A DNA stretch of 49,349 nt from Deltaproteobacteria bacterium (GTDB taxonomy: Bacteria; Desulfobacterota; BSN033; UBA1163): NCBI GenBank assembly GCA_018333535.1, contig JAGXTA010000069.1, positions 1 to 49,349 of the forward strand. The letters run 5' to 3'. The first letter of the stretch is position 1. Each line of letters opens with the position of its first letter. Shown here piece after piece: positions 511 through 43,707 of this stretch. The translations under genes and the position numbers were made by a program. The notes beneath the pieces were generated by a model. That model was not told the DNA's origin, ran no database searches, and saw only the letters and a program-made list of their open reading frames with translations.

Positions 511-1581
511 TTAGAGGTCCCCTTTAGGTTTGATTCCTTGAATGTAGATTTCGATCAGGGTGAGGCAGAGGGTCATAATCAGCGGACCGGCCACCAGCCC
601 GATCATCCCGAAGGCCTGGATGCCGCCCAGAACAGAGAAGAAGAGAAGAAGAGGATGGATGTTCGTTCGAGCGCTGACGAACAGGGGCCTGAGAAGATTG
701 TCGATCATACCGATGAGTAAAATTCCCAAACCGAGAAGAATGATTCCTTTTAGAAATGCTCCTTGAATAAATAGAAAAATGGCCGCCGGCCCCCAGATAA
801 GGGCTGTTCCGCCCATCGGGATGAAGGAGAGAAACGCCATGGCTGTTCCCCAGAAGATCGGAGAGGCAAGCCCTAATACCCAGAATGACACCCCGCCCAG
901 GATCCCCTGAATGATGGCAATCAATATCCCTCCATAGATCGTGGCAGAGACCATATCTTTGAATCGTTGAATAATCAGTTCACTCTCCTTTTTAGGGAGA
1001 GGAACAATCTCTTTGAGATTGTTCAGAAGACGGTCTCCGTCTTTGAAAAGGTAGTAAAGCGAGAGGAGGGTGAAAAAGAAGCCGACGATAAAGGTTGAGA
1101 TGGACTTCAGGAGATTGGAGGTCTGGTTGAAGAGAAAGGCGCTGATCTGTTGAACATTCTTCAACAGAAAATTGCCCGGGTCTGCCTGCGAGAGATCCAC
1201 ATATTGTTTCAGCCTTTCCAGAACCCCTTTGAGCAGGGGGAACTCCCCGATCCGGTTCAAATAGGATTGCAAACGGCCCGTTTTAATCATCTCTTCGAGA
1301 CTGTGGTAAAAATCGATTACCTCATTGGCCAGGGAGATGATCAGGAGACCGGCCGGAAGAACGATCGCCAGGACCACAAAGAGCGTCATGATCAGGGCCG
1401 AGAGAACCTTCTTTTTCTTTAAAAGGCGCTGGAGTCTCAGAAAGAGGGGGTAGAAGACGATGGCCAGAAGAATCGCCCAGAGGATGGGCGCTAAAAAAGG
1501 AGAGAGGACCTGGTAGAGGTAATAAAACGAGAGAGAGGCGAGAAGAAGAATAAAGATCAGAAAGATGTGCTCTTTTTTCAT
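511..1581 (-). CDS. AI-2E family transporter (PF01594-type permease)
   Basis: The product is a 356-residue polytopic membrane protein with hydrophobic segments near the N-terminus (about 8-30 and 33-55) and 60-90, a soluble middle part (about 95-145), and a C-terminal block of helices from about 150 onward. The order, length and C-terminal motifs (a Gly-rich GGILIAIIQGILGG segment, and LRPLFVSART before the last helices) fit the AI-2E transporter family. That family includes the putative autoinducer-2 exporter TqsA and Na+/H+ antiporters, so the substrate is unknown. The start ATG at 1581 lies beside the repeat arm that bounds the neighbouring 4HB cassette. Confidence 0.85.
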   Translation of the reverse strand: MKKEHIFLIFILLLASLSFYYLYQVLSPFLAPILWAILLAIVFYPLFLRLQRLLKKKKVLSALIMTLFVVLAIVLPAGLLIISLANEVIDFYHSLEEMIKTGRLQSYLNRIGEFPLLKGVLERLKQYVDLSQADPGNFLLKNVQQISAFLFNQTSNLLKSISTFIVGFFFTLLSLYYLFKDGDRLLNNLKEIVPLPKKESELIIQRFKDMVSATIYGGILIAIIQGILGGVSFWVLGLASPIFWGTAMAFLSFIPMGGTALIWGPAAIFLFIQGAFLKGIILLGLGILLIGMIDNLLRPLFVSARTNIHPLLLFFSVLGGIQAFGMIGLVAGPLIMTLCLTLIEIYIQGIKPKGDL

Positions 1582-1600
1582 AAATGACTTCGATAAAGGT

Positions 1601-1658
1601 TGTCAGAATATCAGGTGATCAGGCTGCAGATATCAGAATAACAGGATATCAGGTCATC
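1601..1658. repeat. ATCAGG-word inverted repeat, left arm of 4HB cassette 1
   Basis: The arm is made of degenerate copies of ATCAGG / ATATCAGG, such as TATCAGGTGATCAGG and GGATATCAGGTCATC. It is complementary to the right arm at 2034-2091. The stop codon of the enclosed 4HB gene (TGA, 1654-1656 on the minus strand) lies inside this arm. Confidence 0.85.
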
Positions 1659-2064
1659 GTTTTGCCTTTTTCTTTTGCCTAATATAGCGAGTGTAACCAT
1701 TGATGCCCCGTATCACCTCTTCATATTCCTCTACCCATGTTTGGGATTGGTTTGAATCTAAATAACCCTTCCCTGACAACTTACGTATTTGGTTTTGAGT
1801 CTCTCCTGCTTCCTTTCTTGCAATCATAAAACCTTTAATTTTCTCATTATAATAATATGCAGTGTATCCTTCTGCAATATTGTCGCAGACGGACGATGAA
1901 CAACGTTCAATTTGATCTATTAACTTAAACCTCTCTTTTACAGGTATTTTTTTGCAAGACTTATGAATTTTCAGCATCAATTTATAGGCTTTTTGCCACA
2001 CCCAAAGCTTCTCAAATCCTGCTACAAATCTTTCCTGATCACCTGATATCCCGATACTCTGCAT
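1654..2064 (-). CDS. Four-helix-bundle protein, S23/IVS family, inside an inverted-repeat cassette
   Basis: The 136-residue product has the family pattern: FEKLWVWQKAYKL near the start, then LIDQIERCSSSVCDNIAEGY, then a helix with KEAGETQNQI and a GYL turn. This family is encoded by 23S rRNA intervening sequences and by scattered chromosomal genes. It forms basic oligomeric helical bundles related to the Avd protein of diversity-generating retroelements. Its cellular role is not established. The ATG (2062-2064) and the first roughly 11 codons (MQSIGISGDQE) are inside the right repeat arm, and the stop codon is inside the left arm, so gene and palindrome are one unit. The likely ribosome site (AGGAG, 7 nt before ATG) is also repeat-derived. 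Confidence 0.9.
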   Translation of the reverse strand: MQSIGISGDQERFVAGFEKLWVWQKAYKLMLKIHKSCKKIPVKERFKLIDQIERCSSSVCDNIAEGYTAYYYNEKIKGFMIARKEAGETQNQIRKLSGKGYLDSNQSQTWVEEYEEVIRGINGYTRYIRQKKKAKR

Positions 2065-2091
2065 CCTGCTCTCCTGATTACCTGATCACCT
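2034..2091. repeat. ATCAGG-word inverted repeat, right arm of 4HB cassette 1
   Basis: The reverse complement reads GGTGATCAGGTAATCAGG followed by GCAGAGTATCGGGATATC, matching the left arm (1601-1658) in word order with small indels. The arm contains the ribosome-binding site, start codon and first codons of the enclosed gene. A gene-less relative is at 12238-12358. Confidence 0.85.
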
Positions 2092-2092
2092 T

Positions 2093-3177: not shown

Positions 3178-3283
3178 TTAATGGAATGATGGAAGAATGG
3201 AATGATGGAAAGAGGGGATTATCCCTTTCTATTACCCACCGTTCCAATATTCCAATATTCCATTCTGTCTATATTCCATTTTA
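3178..3283. repeat. GGAATAATGGAA-word palindrome (copy 1)
   Basis: The left arm has serial words (AATGGAATGATGGAAG, then again). The right arm holds the reverse complements (GTTCCAATATTCCAATATTCC and ATATTCCATT). Other copies are at 9838-9937 (full) and 10996-11032 (one arm). It fills most of the gap between uspA and selD, which are divergent. Confidence 0.8.
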
Positions 3284-9837: not shown

Positions 9838-9937
9838 TGGAATAATGGAAGATTGGAATACTGGAATGGTGGGTCTGTATCCCATTTTGCTAAAACAATA
9901 AATCTTCACCATTATTCCAGTATTCCAACATTCCATG
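9838..9937. repeat. GGAATAATGGAA-word palindrome (copy 2)
   Basis: Left arm: GGAATAATGGAAGATTGG then AATACTGGAATGGTGGG. Right arm: CACCATTATTCCAGTATTCC then AACATTCCATG. The arms are near-perfect complements across a loop of about 30 nt. Related to 3178-3283 and the single arm at 10996-11032. Confidence 0.88.
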
Positions 9938-11080: not shown

Positions 11081-11941
11081 ATGGCATTGTTAACACGAAG
11101 GCTCCTTTTAAGATATTTTTTGGGGTTGCCTTTCCTTTCTTCCTTTCCCTTTTGGGTTCCGGAGGTGAAGGCAGATTCTTTCCTTATGCAAAGGGAGAGG
11201 AGGGGCATGTCAATTGCCGAATTTTTTAAAGGAGAAGAACTCTCATACGAGGTCGGGTTCTGGCTTTTTAAAAGGGCGGCCCTGGGGAAATTGAGTTTTA
11301 AAGAGATGGAGAAGAAGGGCTGTTACATGGCCATCCTTCAGGCGGAAACATTGGGCGTTCTGGGATTCGTTGTCCGTTATCGGGTGGACACCTACAGGTC
11401 TGTCATGGAAGAGGTGGATGGAGGGAGGCGACTCAGAGCCCTGTCTTTCGAAGAGGATGTGAAGATCGGGGAGAGGCTGAGACGGAAAACCCATCTTTTC
11501 GATTATCAGAAGATGAAATGGATTCAGACGAGGCGGAAAAAGGACGGATCCATCGTGAAGACGGAAGAGGAGATTCCTTCCGGAAAAACCTATGACGATT
11601 TCCTGACCGCTTCATACAATTTCCGTTATGGGGTTTATGGTGAGATCGACAGGGGGAAGCGGTTTTCTGTCCCTACCTTTCCGAAAAAGGGAGTGGGGAC
11701 TTATGAGGTGAGTGTTGCATCGAGGGAGGAAGCGGAGAAGAGGAAGAAATCTGAGAAAATCAAAGACGGAAAAGATTACTTCGTCAAACTCTCCCTCGAT
11801 CCGGAAATCACCCATTCAAAAGAGGGGCTGATTGAGGGGTGGCTCTCCAGAGACCTCTACCCGATCGAAGGAACGATCAGAGATGTTGTCCTCTTCGGGG
11901 ATGTGACCGGGAGGCTCATAAGTAAAGTTCGGAGTCATTAG
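11081..11941 (+). CDS. DUF3108 domain-containing exported protein
   Basis: The product from ATG 11081 has 286 residues and starts with a cleavable signal (MALLTRRLLLRYF, hydrophobic to about residue 24, cleavage near VKA-DS). The mature part is predicted all-beta with the DUF3108 pattern: GEELSYEVGFWLFKRA at the start, then VVRYRVDTYRSVM, then SYNFRYGVYGEIDRGKRF and a final GWLSRDLYPIEG. The function is unknown. The family is exported and scattered in deltaproteobacteria. An in-frame GTG at 11027 is less likely because it lies in the single repeat arm 10996-11032. The last codons (SKVRSH and TAG) are supplied by the palindrome 11926-11999. Confidence 0.82.
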   Translation: MALLTRRLLLRYFLGLPFLSSFPFWVPEVKADSFLMQRERRGMSIAEFFKGEELSYEVGFWLFKRAALGKLSFKEMEKKGCYMAILQAETLGVLGFVVRYRVDTYRSVMEEVDGGRRLRALSFEEDVKIGERLRRKTHLFDYQKMKWIQTRRKKDGSIVKTEEEIPSGKTYDDFLTASYNFRYGVYGEIDRGKRFSVPTFPKKGVGTYEVSVASREEAEKRKKSEKIKDGKDYFVKLSLDPEITHSKEGLIEGWLSRDLYPIEGTIRDVVLFGDVTGRLISKVRSH

Positions 11942-11999
11942 TTCGTAGTTCGGAGTGAAAATCAAATACTCCGAACTCAAAACTCCGAACTCCGAACTG
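11926..11999. repeat. AGTTCGGAGT-word palindrome (copy 1)
   Basis: The left arm has three words (GTTCGGAGT, GTTCGTAGTTCGGAGT). After an 11-nt loop the right arm has the complements (ACTCCGAACTCAAAACTCCG, ACTCCGAAC). Copy 2 is at 23532-23610 and a single arm is at 13863-13897. The stop codon of the DUF3108 gene is inside the left arm. Confidence 0.92.
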
Positions 12000-12217: not shown

Positions 12218-12237
12218 TTCGAAGCACAGTTTTATGG

Positions 12238-12358
12238 TCATCAGAAGATCAGGGTATCAGGATATAAGGACATCGGGTTTAATCATTCTTTTTTTGAATC
12301 TAACTGGTGACCTGATGTTCCGATGCTCTGCATCCTGATATTCTGGTTTCCTGATTCC
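12238..12358. mobile_element. Gene-less ATCAGG-word element (MITE-like relative of 4HB cassette 1)
   Basis: The left arm (12238-12277) has words GATCAGGGTATCAGGATAT and ACATCGG. The right arm (about 12304-12358) is the complement (GGTGACCTGATGTTCCGATG, then CTGCATCCTGATATTC). Both correspond to the arms of cassette 1 at 1601-2091, but the 4HB coding sequence is replaced by about 30 nt. On the minus strand the right arm still has ATG (12331-12333) followed by MQSIGTSGHQ, almost the start of the cassette-1 protein, and a stop after 16 codons. Confidence 0.8.
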
Positions 12359-12398
12359 ATTTCGGATTTTAAAGATCACCTCAAATGAGGAGAATAGA

Positions 12399-22971: not shown

Positions 22972-23547
22972 ATGGCTTCTAACCTCTACATCGGATTGGT
23001 TCACCATCCCGTCTATGGTCGAAAAAGAGAAGTTATCGCCACCGCGGTGACCAACTTCGATATTCACGATATTTCCCGCTGTGCGCGGACATTCGGGCTG
23101 GGAGGTTTTTTCATCATCACTCCCCTTGAAAGCCAGGTGGAGTTGGTTGAGAGGATCATCAGCCACTGGAGTCAGGGTGAGGGCTCGGTATACAACCCTA
23201 CGAGAAAGGAATCTCTCTCCCTGGTCCGGGTATCCCGGAGCATTGATGGGGCGGATCAGGAAATCTCGCGCTTTCATCAGAAGAAGGCCAAGAGAGTTGC
23301 CACAGGAGCTTCTCCTCACCCTGATTGCATCGGTTACGGAGGACTTCGGGAACTATTCAAGGACAGGGAAACTCCGTTTTTCCTCCTGTTCGGGACCGGG
23401 TGGGGTTTGACCCAGGAGGTTAAAGACAGTTCGGATTATGTGCTGGCACCCATCGAAGGAAAAGGTTATAATCACCTCTCAGTCCGCTCAGCCGTTGCCA
23501 TCATCCTGGACAGGCTGTTAGGGGATAGAATTAGCAGTTCGGAGTAA
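22972..23547 (+). CDS. PF09936-type SAM-dependent RNA methyltransferase
   Basis: The 191-residue protein starts MASNLYIGLVHHPVYGRKRE and has IATAVTNFDIHDISRCARTF, FLLFGTGWGLTQEV and a final YNHLSVRSAVAIILDRLL. This pattern is the SPOUT-like RNA methyltransferase family that sits between trmD and rplS in deltaproteobacteria and some other phyla. The substrate is not established. No ribosome site precedes the ATG, which abuts repeat 22828-22967. The last codons (SSSE and TAA) come from the next repeat, 23532-23610. Confidence 0.85.
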   Translation: MASNLYIGLVHHPVYGRKREVIATAVTNFDIHDISRCARTFGLGGFFIITPLESQVELVERIISHWSQGEGSVYNPTRKESLSLVRVSRSIDGADQEISRFHQKKAKRVATGASPHPDCIGYGGLRELFKDRETPFFLLFGTGWGLTQEVKDSSDYVLAPIEGKGYNHLSVRSAVAIILDRLLGDRISSSE

Positions 23548-23610
23548 TGAGTTCGTAGTTCGGAGTAATTATTTAAACTCTCCGAACTCAAAACTCCGAA
23601 CTCCGAACTT
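23532..23610. repeat. AGTTCGGAGT-word palindrome (copy 2)
   Basis: The left arm (AGTTCGGAGTAATGAGTTCG, TAGTTCGGAGT) and right arm (CTCCGAACTCAAAACTCCG, AACTCCGAACTT) flank a loop of about 11 nt. Nearly the same as 11926-11999. It contains the stop codon of the upstream methyltransferase gene. Confidence 0.92.
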
Positions 23611-25272: not shown

Positions 25273-25286
25273 TATAGGAAACTATA

Positions 25287-25388
25287 GCTAGGGGAGCTCA
25301 CTTGGGCTGAGAGTCCTTGTTCCGCTTTGGCGGGACAGGGAGACCCTCTGAACCTGTTCGGGTAATTCCAGCGAAGGGAAGCGGTAAT
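25287..25388 (+). promoter_or_regulatory. TPP riboswitch (THI element)
   Basis: The conserved pieces are in order: GGGGAGC, GGGCTGAGAG, a variable stem, ACCCTCTGAACCTG, GGGTAATTCCAGCGAAGGGA. Binding of thiamine pyrophosphate is expected to let the downstream terminator (25401-25435) form and shut off thiDN and cytX. Genes below it fit thiamine pyrimidine salvage. Confidence 0.95.
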
Positions 25389-25400
25389 AAAGATGGAGAA

Positions 25401-25570: not shown

Positions 25571-26908
25571 ATGAAACGAATACTAACGATTGCCGGATCG
25601 GATTCGGGAGGAGGAGCGGGGATACAGGCGGACCTGAAGGCGATTACCCTTCTGGGTGGCTACGGGATGAGTGTGATCACAGCACTCACCGCACAGAATA
25701 CCATAGGGGTTCAGGCCATCCATGAGGTGCCTGTCTCTTTTGTGAAGAAACAGATGGATTCCGTGCTCTCCGATATCGGCGCAGATGCTATTAAAACAGG
25801 GATGCTGTCGAGCTCGAAGATCGTCGAAGTCGTGGCCAATAAGATTAAGGAGTACGGAGTAGGAATCGTGGTCGTTGATCCGGTGATGGTCTCCAAGAGC
25901 GGAGCTTCCCTGCTTCGCAAAGAGGCTCAGAAGGCGGTCATCAAACGGTTGATTCCTCTGGCGACGGTGATCACCCCCAATTTGTTTGAAGCTTCTGTTC
26001 TCACCGGCCGTCGGGTGGATTCGCTCGATGGGATGAGAAAGGCGGCTATTGACATCTGGGCATTAGGGGCAAAGAATGTGGTGATCAAAGGGGGCCATTT
26101 GAAGGGAAAGGCGATTGATCTTCTCTTCGACGGGAAAGACTATATCGAGTTTGAAGGCTCGAGGATTGAGACGAAAAATACCCATGGGACGGGTTGTACC
26201 TTTGCCTCAGCGATTGCAACGTTTTTAGCCAGAGGAGAGACTGTTCCGGGAGCGGTGAACAACGCAAAGAATTTCATCACCATGGCGATCCGGGCCGGTT
26301 TAAACCTTGGGAAAGGAACGGGTCCCACCCATCCGACAGCCTATGTGCTGAAGGAGATGGAACGCTATCCCGTGATCCAGGAATTAAAGAAGGCCGTGGA
26401 TGTGTTGAAGGAAGAAAAGATGGGATACCTGATTCCAGAAGTCTCTTCCAATTTAGGTTATGCCCTTCCTTATGCAGAAGGATGGGAAGAGGTGGCTGCC
26501 TTTCCAGGGAGGATTGTTCGATTGAAAGATTCGGTGACCACCTTTGGAGACCCTGAGTTTGGGGTTTCCCAGCATGTTGCCAATATTATTCTGACCGTCA
26601 TGAAGTTTAATCCCGAATACCGGTCAGCCATGAATATCCGTTATTCAAAAGAGAATATTGCGCAATTAGAGGGGAAGGGGTTCCTCATTGGCCATTTTGA
26701 CCGGAGGCTCGAACCGAAAAAGATAAAAGAAAAGGAAGGCTCTTCGTTGGAATGGGGAGTGGGAGAAGTGATCATGCAATTAAAGCGCATTCCTGATTTC
26801 ATCTATGACGAGGGAGGTATTGGTAAGGAACCCATGATCCGGGTTCTGGGACGGAATCCGGTGGAAGTCATCGATAAGATAAAGAAGGCAGCAAGCAGTG
26901 ACAAGTAA
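25571..26908 (+). CDS. thiD: ThiD-ThiN fusion: HMP(-P) kinase plus thiamine-phosphate synthase
   Basis: The 445-residue protein has ThiD at about 1-260 (TIAGSDSGGGAGIQADLKAI, NTHGTGCTFASAIATFLARG). ThiD phosphorylates hydroxymethylpyrimidine twice. Residues about 275-440 match ThiN (VIQELKKAVDVLKEEKMGYL, GVSQHVANIILTVMKFNP), which joins the pyrimidine and thiazole phosphates and replaces ThiE. The same fusion is known in archaea and some anaerobic bacteria. It stands under the TPP riboswitch and before cytX. AAGGAG precedes the ATG. Its last codons (SSDK and TAA) lie in the left arm of the 4HB cassette 2. Confidence 0.93.
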   Translation: MKRILTIAGSDSGGGAGIQADLKAITLLGGYGMSVITALTAQNTIGVQAIHEVPVSFVKKQMDSVLSDIGADAIKTGMLSSSKIVEVVANKIKEYGVGIVVVDPVMVSKSGASLLRKEAQKAVIKRLIPLATVITPNLFEASVLTGRRVDSLDGMRKAAIDIWALGAKNVVIKGGHLKGKAIDLLFDGKDYIEFEGSRIETKNTHGTGCTFASAIATFLARGETVPGAVNNAKNFITMAIRAGLNLGKGTGPTHPTAYVLKEMERYPVIQELKKAVDVLKEEKMGYLIPEVSSNLGYALPYAEGWEEVAAFPGRIVRLKDSVTTFGDPEFGVSQHVANIILTVMKFNPEYRSAMNIRYSKENIAQLEGKGFLIGHFDRRLEPKKIKEKEGSSLEWGVGEVIMQLKRIPDFIYDEGGIGKEPMIRVLGRNPVEVIDKIKKAASSDK

Positions 26909-26940
26909 CCAGTCACCAGTGATCAGTAATCAGTGATCAG
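26891..26940. repeat. GATCAGTAACCAGT-word inverted repeat, left arm of 4HB cassette 2
   Basis: Serial words (AGTAACCAGTCACCAGT, GATCAGTAATCAGTGATCAG) complementary to the right arm at 27357-27393. It holds the thiDN stop codon. The words differ from cassette 1 but the plan is the same. Confidence 0.82.
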
Positions 26941-26965
26941 AAAGATTCAAAAAAAGGAGAGATCG

Positions 26966-27373
26966 ATGAGTAAGTTGGGACATGCCGAGAGCTTCAGGGA
27001 TTTGGTTGTCTATAAGAATGCTCGGAAATTAGCAAAGTCAGTTTTTGAACTAACGAAGTCTTTTCCTAAGGAAGAAATGTATTCATTAACCGATCAGGTC
27101 AGACGATCATCGCGTTCGATTGGGGGACAGATTGCTGAGGCATGGGCTAAGAGACGATATAAGAAACATTTCATCAGCAAACTCACCGATGCGGATGGTG
27201 AGCAGCAAGAAACACAACATTGGATCGAGACGGCAGAAGATTGTGGATATTTGAAACCAGAGCAAACCCAAAAGTTAAACAACGCGGCGTCCGAAATAGG
27301 CAGAATGATCAACTCAATGATTAATAAAGCGGATATTTTTTGTGATAAGCGTTTTTCAGTCACCGATGACTGA
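26966..27373 (+). CDS. Four-helix-bundle protein, S23/IVS family, cassette 2
   Basis: The 135-residue protein shares the family pattern with the cassette-1 gene: FRDLVVYKNARKLAKSVFEL, then LTDQVRRSSRSIGGQIAEAW, then a helix with DGEQQETQHWIE and a GYL turn. I chose ATG 26966 because AAGGAGA lies directly upstream. An upstream in-frame start would begin in the repeat. The end (SVTDD and TGA) lies inside the right arm 27357-27393. The gene sits inside the thiamine operon, between thiDN and cytX, with no thiamine function expected, so it looks like an insertion. Confidence 0.9.
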   Translation: MSKLGHAESFRDLVVYKNARKLAKSVFELTKSFPKEEMYSLTDQVRRSSRSIGGQIAEAWAKRRYKKHFISKLTDADGEQQETQHWIETAEDCGYLKPEQTQKLNNAASEIGRMINSMINKADIFCDKRFSVTDD

Positions 27374-27393
27374 TAACTGGTTACTGATCACCG
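27357..27393. repeat. GATCAGTAACCAGT-word inverted repeat, right arm of 4HB cassette 2
   Basis: The reverse complement reads GGTGATCAGTAACCAGTTAT then CAGTCATCGGTGACTG, matching the left arm 26891-26940. It includes the stop codon of the enclosed 4HB gene. Confidence 0.82.
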
Positions 27394-42724: not shown

Positions 42725-42855
42725 TTAATCTCCAATAACCAAATTCGAATTTCCAAATAAATCCCAATGACCAAATGATCCAATAACCAAATTGAAAAAT
42801 TTGGTCATTGATATTTTGGTTATCATTTGGTGATTGGTGTTTGGAATTTGGTTAT
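42725..42855. repeat. CCAAAT/ATTTGG-word palindrome (copy 3)
   Basis: Left arm: CCAATAACCAAATTCGAATT, CCAATGACCAAATGATCC. Right arm: ATTTGGTCATTGATATTTTGG, TGGTGTTTGGAATTTGG. It fills the 137-bp gap between mscS (end) and glgA (start). Confidence 0.85.
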
Positions 42856-43707
42856 TCATTTTTGTTTGGTTTCTCCCCATAGAAGGACCCGGTGGGGAAA
42901 GGGGAGTTGAATCCCTTTTTCATCGAACCGGATTTTGATCCTTCTCCGCAACTCCCTTCCCACCTCCCATTGTTTCAGAGGAGCGGTTTTCACCATCATC
43001 CGTATGACCATCTGGGATTCATCAAATTTTTCAACCCCCAGAATCTGAAGGGGTTCAAGGATGGCGCTCTTTAAGGATTCCTCTGACTCCATTTCCTTTC
43101 CGATCCGGATGAGAAGGTCGATGACCTGGTCGATATCCTCCCGATAAGAGATGCCCAGATCGAGAACCGAGCGGGACCATTCCTTTGAAAGATTGCTGAC
43201 CACCTTAATCTCACCGTTCGGAATGGTGTGGACCTTCCCCTGGAGGTCTCGCAGGACGGTCTTTCTCAGGCTGACCGACTCGACCAGTCCTGAGACGCCT
43301 GCCACTTCGATCACATCCCCGATCCGGTATTGATTCTCAAGGATGATGAAGAACCCGCTGATGACATCCTTCACCAGACTCTGGGCCCCGAAACCGATGG
43401 CTAATGCCCCGATGCCGGCTGTGGCCAGCAAGGGGCCTAATTGAATCCCCAATTCTCCGAGAATCATCAGAACGGCGACGAACGTGATGATGATGAGAAA
43501 GGCATGCCTCAGGATATTACCGAGAGTCTGTGCCCTCTTCTTCGCCTCTGAAGCCAGAAGGGGATCTTTCTCATAAACAAATTTCTCCATCCATCTGGCG
43601 ATCCATCGGGACATCTGCGAGAGGATGATCAGGGCGATGAGGATCCCGACGATCTTGATTCCCGAGGTGGTCAGCCAGGAGGCGAGGGTCTTAAGCGTCT
43701 CAGTCAT
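42856..43707 (-). CDS. MscS-family mechanosensitive channel
   Basis: The 283-residue protein has the MscS pore helix and beta domain pattern: ATAGIGALAIGFGAQSLVKD, FFIILENQYRIGDVIEV, LRKTVLRDLQGKVHTIPNG. The family acts as a pressure-relief valve. It is last in the purB-ftsH-DUF502 operon. Confidence 0.93.
   Translation of the reverse strand: MTETLKTLASWLTTSGIKIVGILIALIILSQMSRWIARWMEKFVYEKDPLLASEAKKRAQTLGNILRHAFLIIITFVAVLMILGELGIQLGPLLATAGIGALAIGFGAQSLVKDVISGFFIILENQYRIGDVIEVAGVSGLVESVSLRKTVLRDLQGKVHTIPNGEIKVVSNLSKEWSRSVLDLGISYREDIDQVIDLLIRIGKEMESEESLKSAILEPLQILGVEKFDESQMVIRMMVKTAPLKQWEVGRELRRRIKIRFDEKGIQLPFPHRVLLWGETKQK

Follow-up and report, generated by a model that had tools for sequence, protein, structure and literature searches.

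Why should a small gene for a four-helix-bundle (4HB) protein lie in the loop of a hairpin built of repeated words, between two transporter genes of a bacterial operon? To our knowledge, the S23/IVP genes to which it belongs, familiar until now chiefly as inserts of rRNA genes, are widespread in bacterial genomes and have no known function, and the mobility of the intervening sequences (IVSs) that carry such genes has been an open question since the 1990s. The case arose in 49,349 nucleotides of a deltaproteobacterial genome (the window, that is, the whole stretch of DNA that was analysed), where a sequence-only reading had pointed to complementary ATCAGG arms at 1601-1658 and 2034-2091 and had suggested an ORF in the loop of a hairpin outside rRNA, possibly a small mobile element whose ends double as translation signals. 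The element, its host genes and a second element of the window are as follows:

2034..2092, minus strand (the sense strand): 5' arm of the element, word array GGTGATCAGGTAATCAGGAGAGCAGGATGCAG...ATATCAGGTGATCAGG, holding AGGAG and the ATG of the 4HB gene
1592..1658, minus strand: 3' arm of the element, in sense GATGACCTGATATCCTGTTATTCTGATATCTGCAGCCTGATCACCTGATATTCTGACAACC, holding the TGA of the 4HB gene
1654..2064, minus strand: four-helix-bundle gene (4HB; S23/IVP, PF05635), 136 aa, protein P0001
2093..2707, minus strand: Vut_1 family transporter gene of the host, upstream in the operon, its stop codon (2095-2093) abutting the 5' arm
511..1581, minus strand: AI-2E family transporter gene of the host, downstream in the operon, with its ATG at 1581
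26896..27391, plus strand: second 4HB element of the window, with CAGTAAC/CAGTGAT words, arms at about 26896-26944 and 27353-27391, and its ORF at 26966-27373

The complementarity of the ATCAGG arms was confirmed by alignment, repeat finding and folding. Positions 1592-1623 pair with 2034-2065 (78% complementary over 32 nt) and 1634-1658 with 2037-2061 (84% over 25 nt), TRF detects the word array at 2034-2091 with a period of 8, and arms this strong surround only 6% of control ORFs. The sense-strand RNA of 1585-2100, whose folding had been proposed as a check, is far more stable than its dinucleotide shuffles (-144.7 versus -112.6 kcal/mol, z -5.66, reached by 0 of 100 shuffles), with 55 pairs linking the two arm regions. 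Start and stop signals lie where they had been claimed, with the ATG (2064-2062), the AGGAG (2075-2071) and about 10 codons inside the right-hand (5') arm and the TGA (1656-1654) inside the left-hand (3') arm. The 5' arm starts one base past the vut_1 TGA, and about 10 nt separate the end of the 3' arm from the AI-2E ATG. The only ORF of at least 80 aa between the arms is the PF05635 gene, with neither a Y1 HUH transposase nor any other transposase ORF, and the site is a gap between vut_1 and the AI-2E gene, not a 23S rRNA gene, the window as a whole giving no rRNA match. The second element has orthologous copies in two other loci (L043 and L062). Elsewhere in the window, a TPP riboswitch occupies 25280-25396 (Rfam RF00059, 58.7 bits).

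P0001 matches PF05635 (E 2e-28) and TIGR02436 (E 8e-29), and its AlphaFold model shows, with confidence (mean pLDDT 92), a four-helix bundle whose only disordered part, residues 1-10 (pLDDT 44), is the one that the arm encodes. The best Foldseek matches of the model were 2gsc and the S23 protein 2rld, followed by the phage Avd protein 4dwl (TM 0.71/0.88); the Avd HMM gave a weak match to P0001, below its cut-off. The predicted charge of P0001 is +10.6, against a median of only about +2 for the 4HB family. Moreover, a dN/dS of about 0.07-0.09 for the 4HB gene shows that the protein is under strong purifying selection.

Is the hairpin a peculiarity of this locus? An arm score, taken from the highest-scoring inverted local alignment between the 220 nt on either side of a gene, was applied with a cut-off of 24 points to 104 distinct 4HB genes of the phylum, drawn from the genome of the window and from relatives of it, with 480 other ORFs of the same loci as controls. 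Arms of at least 24 points were found around 91 of the 104 genes (87.5%) and around 6.0% of the controls (p = 1.8e-41). A scan of GTDB species genomes, run with the alignment of a narrower set, an 18-sequence alignment being too diverse, gave 80 named 4HB loci in more than 20 phyla, including Bacteroidota, Cyanobacteriota, Planctomycetota, Bacillota, Patescibacteria, Chloroflexota and Acidobacteriota; phages gave no match. Arms flank 63 of 75 of these loci and 27 of 196 control ORFs (14%; p = 1e-23). The background of the score is thus 6-14%, and since neighbouring control ORFs may abut gene-less hairpins, the controls are conservative. About 12-16% of 4HB genes show no detectable arms, and several of these and the following comparisons rest on fragmented assemblies; the home genome is a draft.

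Seen from close up, the window's genome has 10 matches to the 4HB family, seven of them well-conserved short genes. Six of these seven lie, by eye, between inverted word arrays (one of the six, L007, scores weakly by the automatic measure), and each array has its own word: ATCAGG, CAGTAAC, AGTTCGG, AAGGAGCG, TTCAAATG and TGGAATAA. Across elements, the arms are word repeats (best-lag identity 0.72 versus 0.43 when shuffled), and among 93 periodic arms the period was 7 or 14 in 67 and 8 in 18. They also have a strand chirality in composition: of 149 skewed elements, 135 have a G-rich 5' arm and a C-rich 3' arm, while the other 14 have a C-rich 5' arm. Consistent arms around many 4HB genes had been named beforehand as what would support an ORF-in-the-loop design outside rRNA, and chromosomal 4HB genes mostly devoid of inverted repeats as what would speak against it; most genes have arms. 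The hairpin architecture is therefore established as the rule for 4HB genes, not a single-locus curiosity. Armed 4HB genes also occur in cultured organisms that might be used as experimental hosts, such as Thiobacillus denitrificans RG (L134), Anabaena sp. UHCC 0204 (L193), Flavobacterium fluvii (L136) and Xanthomarina gelatinilytica (L196), and one locus (L040, G007:C126:4500-19000) holds a local cluster of four 4HB genes within about 9 kb.

The placement of the elements is just as regular. In bulk statistics that identify neighbouring genes by ORF length only, both neighbours are co-directional with the 4HB gene in 80 of 90 armed phylum elements, compared with 65% of gene triples in the window's genome, which establishes a sense bias of the gene-bearing copies. 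Of the 135 elements with a same-strand upstream ORF, 48 have the stop codon of that ORF no more than 5 nt from the edge of the arm. The Shine-Dalgarno region lies inside the arm in 42 of 120 elements; the start codon does so in only 12 of 120 and the stop codon in 27 of 120, and in the closest relative (L048) the ATG comes after the arm. The suggestion that the ends double as translation signals does not hold, then, as a general design: these counts rule it out, and with start and stop inside the arms in a minority, the window element is a variant.

A different question is whether arms and gene belong to each other. It can be approached by pairing 4HB loci with unrelated outer flanks, keeping in mind that the pairs are not independent, as one subfamily recurs in several of them. 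At 70% protein identity or more, 93.5% of the pairs (n = 46) have the arm word in common and in the same orientation; sharing drops to 56% at 60-70% identity (n = 27), 9% at 50-60% and about 1% below 50%. DNA similarity between such pairs ends at the outer arm edge. Relatives of the window element in two genomes (G002 and G014), with a protein about 77% identical, keep the ATCAGG arms at a different operon junction. These comparisons establish the co-travel of word and protein and show arms and 4HB gene behaving as a single travelling unit. When the arms of one locus were swapped with those of a sister element they paired equally well, so that no locus-specific co-evolution between the two arms is visible.

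If the unit travels, sites without it should exist, and these had been proposed as the place to look. At the window's own junction, vut_1 is directly followed by the AI-2E gene in nine relatives (L201-L209), with neither the 4HB gene nor the ATCAGG arms; the alternative outcome, arms present at this site in relatives and never associated with a gene, is thus the opposite of what is found. A second chromosomal junction, from an EPS gene to an ExeA-like gene, carries 4HB elements with different words, AAGGGTTC in L215, GAGGCGTAAG in L219 and GCGCATA words in L217 and L220, a gene-less hairpin in L216 whose GCGCAAA words match those of the L217/L220 elements, and nothing inserted in L221-L223.

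Closed cyanobacterial plasmids offer the sharpest view, with elements of 414-505 nt interrupting gaps of 0-13 nt. At site 1, an insert of 414-428 nt is found in Trichormus variabilis ATCC 29413 and Scytonema NIES-4073, whereas four other plasmids are empty (flanks 97% identical, gap of 13 nt); GTAA, which includes the stop codon, occurs once in the empty sites and twice in the filled ones, and in Nostoc C052 a decayed copy is left, with the 5' arm and an initial portion of the gene. Site 2 is filled in two plasmids, without the element in L302 (C057; gap of 52 nt), and occupied in Nostoc ATCC 53789 (L301) by a gene-less hairpin with the same words as the 4HB element of L290. Site 3 is a 3 nt gap in three plasmids and is filled in both plasmids of Calothrix brevissima NIES-22. 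Sites 4 and 5 are the cas6-cas4 and cas10-cmr3 gaps, for both of which relatives without the element were found, the cas10/cmr3 comparison being PCC 7003 versus 7002. At the Nostoc site 6a, the empty form has TAA directly followed by ATG and the filled form 505 nt between them, and at site 6b TTCTA stands on both sides of the element. Short target duplications are visible at two sites only, GTAA (4 nt) and TTCTA (5 nt), and at chromosomal sites the divergence of the gaps makes them unreadable. An empty site with a gap of zero length is not what one would readily expect from a deletion, which makes gain the simpler reading. Filled and empty sites are established by these cases, and deletion derivatives and gene-less derivatives are found at the same sites. 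As judged from the aligned junctions, the empty sites show insertion, and the proposal of a mobile element is borne out by uninterrupted sites in relatives and in cyanobacterial plasmids.

Gene-less hairpins are not confined to these sites. The window itself holds the following:

12234..12359, minus strand: gene-less ATCAGG hairpin, homologous to the 5' arm of the 4HB element including GGATGCAGAG, antisense to the surrounding plus-strand genes
3180..3264, no strand assigned: gene-less word hairpin, TGGAATGA
9845..9936, no strand assigned: gene-less word hairpin, TGGAATAC
11926..11997, plus strand: gene-less word hairpin of the multicopy AGTTCGG family
23536..23609, plus strand: gene-less word hairpin of the multicopy AGTTCGG family
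42734..42856, no strand assigned: gene-less word hairpin, CCAAATNA

About 20 word hairpins without a 4HB gene were counted in 385 kb of the window's genome. The arm pattern of the AGTTCGG hairpins has 23 matches in this genome (G000) and 24 in G002, with none in G005 and G008 and none for a reversed control pattern. Five 4HB-bearing genomes of the phylum have 13 paired word arrays in 339 kb and five 4HB-free ones have 0 in 334 kb, the direction predicted, in a test that is small (about 0.33 Mb per group) and confounded by phylogeny. That the hairpin at 12234-12359 keeps the arm stretch GGATGCAGAG without any gene argues again against a translation-signal role of the ends. In co-directional gaps, the AGTTCGG gene-less hairpins lie in both orientations (10 sense, 7 antisense), which rules out sense-only insertion, and a need for expression accounts better for the sense bias among copies that bear the gene. 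One of these hairpins (L113, 8238-8444) has an unrelated REP-like palindrome (CCGTTCGTCCTGAGGCTCTCGAAGGATGAACGG) in its loop, a case of nested repeats.

The reading that we favour, and regard as quite probable, is that of a small mobile hairpin element, an inverted repeat of 7-8 nt word arrays with a 4HB gene in its loop, accompanied by gene-less non-autonomous copies. Such an element would enter an operon at the junction of two co-directional neighbours, directly against the stop codon of the upstream gene, and would probably duplicate 4-5 nt; this would leave both host genes intact and let the 4HB gene be read along with the operon. Hairpins that have the same words and no gene would be its non-autonomous derivatives, presumably dependent on the 4HB protein in trans as REPINs are on RAYTs. 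The basic, Avd-like 4HB oligomer might bind the folded arms, as DNA or as RNA, and recruit or guide a strand-transfer activity of the host or of a third party, and slippage may keep the word arrays alike. The element encodes no catalytic domain, and a 4HB protein acting alone as a transposase would be without precedent. Whether these elements form a new, phylum-spanning class of transposable elements, in which a non-enzymatic 4HB protein, as the sole protein, recognises its own word hairpin, inserts at operon stop/start junctions and mobilises gene-less hairpins in trans, with the rRNA IVSs and many heptamer repeats as branches, is for us an evenly balanced matter.

Another engine can be imagined for the same hairpins. 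HUH/Y1 transposases of the REP or IS200 type could move the single-stranded hairpin in trans, with the 4HB gene as accessory or passenger, an idea that we find rather unlikely yet worth keeping in sight. The same genomes are rich in Y1_Tnp genes, and the counts of Y1_Tnp and 4HB genes are correlated (rho 0.66, p 4e-6), so mobilisation may be due to a factor other than the 4HB protein; gene-bearing together with gene-less hairpins is, besides, the architecture of REPIN/RAYT systems (PMC3116915). However, no Y1_Tnp was detected in the 4HB-bearing genomes G026 (five 4HB matches, 91% completeness, its L024 copy armed), G037 and G008 (one match each), whereas the 4HB-free G035 has 11 Y1 genes, and no paired word arrays occur in its sampled stretches and those of the other 4HB-free genomes taken together. 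A fixed target would be expected of Y1 elements, and the short duplications differ (GTAA, TTCTA); the 4HB gene, moreover, is under strong purifying selection. A route through RNA, with RNase III cutting the hairpin from the operon mRNA as in 23S IVSs and the excised RNA re-inserted via reverse transcription, seems to us improbable. It would account for the protein family, length (about 430-500 nt) and stem-loop shared with the Coxiella IVS (PMC4990558), the very stable sense-strand fold, the sense orientation of gene-bearing copies and the 135 versus 14 bias to G-rich 5' arms. Against it, an RVT_1 gene is absent from 18 of the 27 genomes with at least 3 4HB matches, so that reverse transcriptases are dispensable and we reject their action in trans; arm mismatches show no excess of G-U over A-C (319 versus 281, p = 0.13), hence no signal of RNA-specific arm pairing; and gene-less hairpins occur in both orientations. 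With neither a G-U preference nor arm co-evolution, nothing here marks the RNA form as the functional one, although the RNA may be cut in the stem without re-insertion.

Two further readings do away with mobility. An immobile regulatory or attenuator hairpin, whose protein would be a local controller of the neighbouring operon genes, fits the position between operon genes and the Shine-Dalgarno region found in the arm in a third of cases, but different elements have quite different neighbours (T4SS, cas, transporters, EPS), one and the same element turns up at unrelated sites, and close relatives have these junctions without an insert. Given these empty sites, the regulatory hairpin is refuted as the main explanation and we hold it very improbable, with residual local effects possible. 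Least credible of all is that slippage in host intergenic DNA produced the word arrays, their association with 4HB genes being due to chance or composition. The tandem words do look like products of slippage, and 4HB-free genomes have arrays without inverted partners at 3.9 per 100 kb; yet control ORFs of the same loci are rarely armed, words are shared at unrelated sites and insertion boundaries coincide with the arms.

How does the mobile hairpin element relate to known systems? Its closest known relative is the 23S rRNA IVS with an S23p/IVP ORF, as described in Leptospira and Coxiella (PMC4990558), with which it has in common PF05635, an ORF in the loop of a terminal stem and a length of some 430-450 nt. 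Ralph and McClelland, as cited in that paper, suspected the IVS of being selfish, its ORF serving mobility. Unlike the 23S IVS, the present element has a protein-coding operon as host, arms of 7-8 nt word arrays that differ between elements, abundant gene-less derivatives and documented empty and filled sites. The 23S signature oligonucleotide is absent from every locus scanned, which rules out a 23S rRNA context among them. Being outside rRNA, the element is by definition not an IVS, though built like one, and the rRNA IVSs look like a special case of the mobile hairpin element.

REPIN/RAYT systems, or REPtrons (PMC3116915, PMC8266576), are closest by logic, not by protein. They also combine a gene flanked by inverted palindromes with many dispersed gene-less hairpins, and dispersed gene-less hairpins sharing the palindrome are present here as well (12234-12359, the AGTTCGG family, and L216 versus L217/L220). 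Whereas they encode a Y1 HUH transposase and have REPs of 20-40 nt with a GTAG/CGTC tag, the present element encodes a 4HB protein and has long word arrays of no fixed sequence. The Avd/bAvd proteins of diversity-generating retroelements have the fold in common (4dwl), but no reverse transcriptase lies between our arms and most 4HB-rich genomes lack RVT_1. Classical IS and MITE elements, in turn, have a fixed terminal inverted repeat and their own or a cognate transposase, in contrast with words that differ between elements below 50% protein identity and with the missing transposase ORF; a cognate transposase may, however, lie elsewhere in the genome.

Multicopy tandem-heptanucleotide elements have been reported in Geobacter metallireducens (PMC2700814) and, as TAACTGA repeats, in Beggiatoaceae (PMC4679880), where they were read as sites for IHF/HU or for translational regulators. 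They too are intergenic arrays of 7 nt words, partly paired in Geobacter, and the main texts of both papers make no mention of helix-bundle genes; these arrays are plausibly the gene-less form of the present element. A CRISPR survey (PMC10910872) lists '23S rRNA IVP' as CRISPR-linked. Because three cas operons carry a 4HB gene, and relatives without it exist for both gaps (cas6-cas4 and cas10-cmr3), that link may reflect a hitch-hiking element. The three cases, all in cyanobacterial plasmids, are L295 4001-4360, L308 1237-1605 and L310 2492-2848, in operons of types I-D (cas6-cas4, twice, with different words) and III-B (cas10-cmr3), and L306 and L315 are the relatives without the 4HB element.

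No prior description of 4HB genes in word-repeat hairpins at operon junctions was found in open-access papers, and the evidence as a whole points to a kind of mobile DNA, large and seemingly not described before, that has a 4HB protein as its sole product and extends over more than 20 phyla. S23/IVP genes are thereby tied to one element architecture, with filled and empty sites and with autonomous and non-autonomous copies, and the abundant heptamer-repeat hairpins, otherwise read as regulatory sites, gain a possible origin. Moreover, cultured hosts such as Trichormus variabilis ATCC 29413 and Picosynechococcus PCC 7003/7002 make IVS-type mobility directly testable. A last detail concerns the ends of the element: the outermost bases of the 3' arm (right ends of L292 and L288, and 1592-1600 of the window) look like a reverse-complemented copy of the host bases that immediately precede the 5' arm, for example TTCTTTGTAA versus host TTAAAAAGTAA, as though snap-back copying of the host had lengthened the arm.
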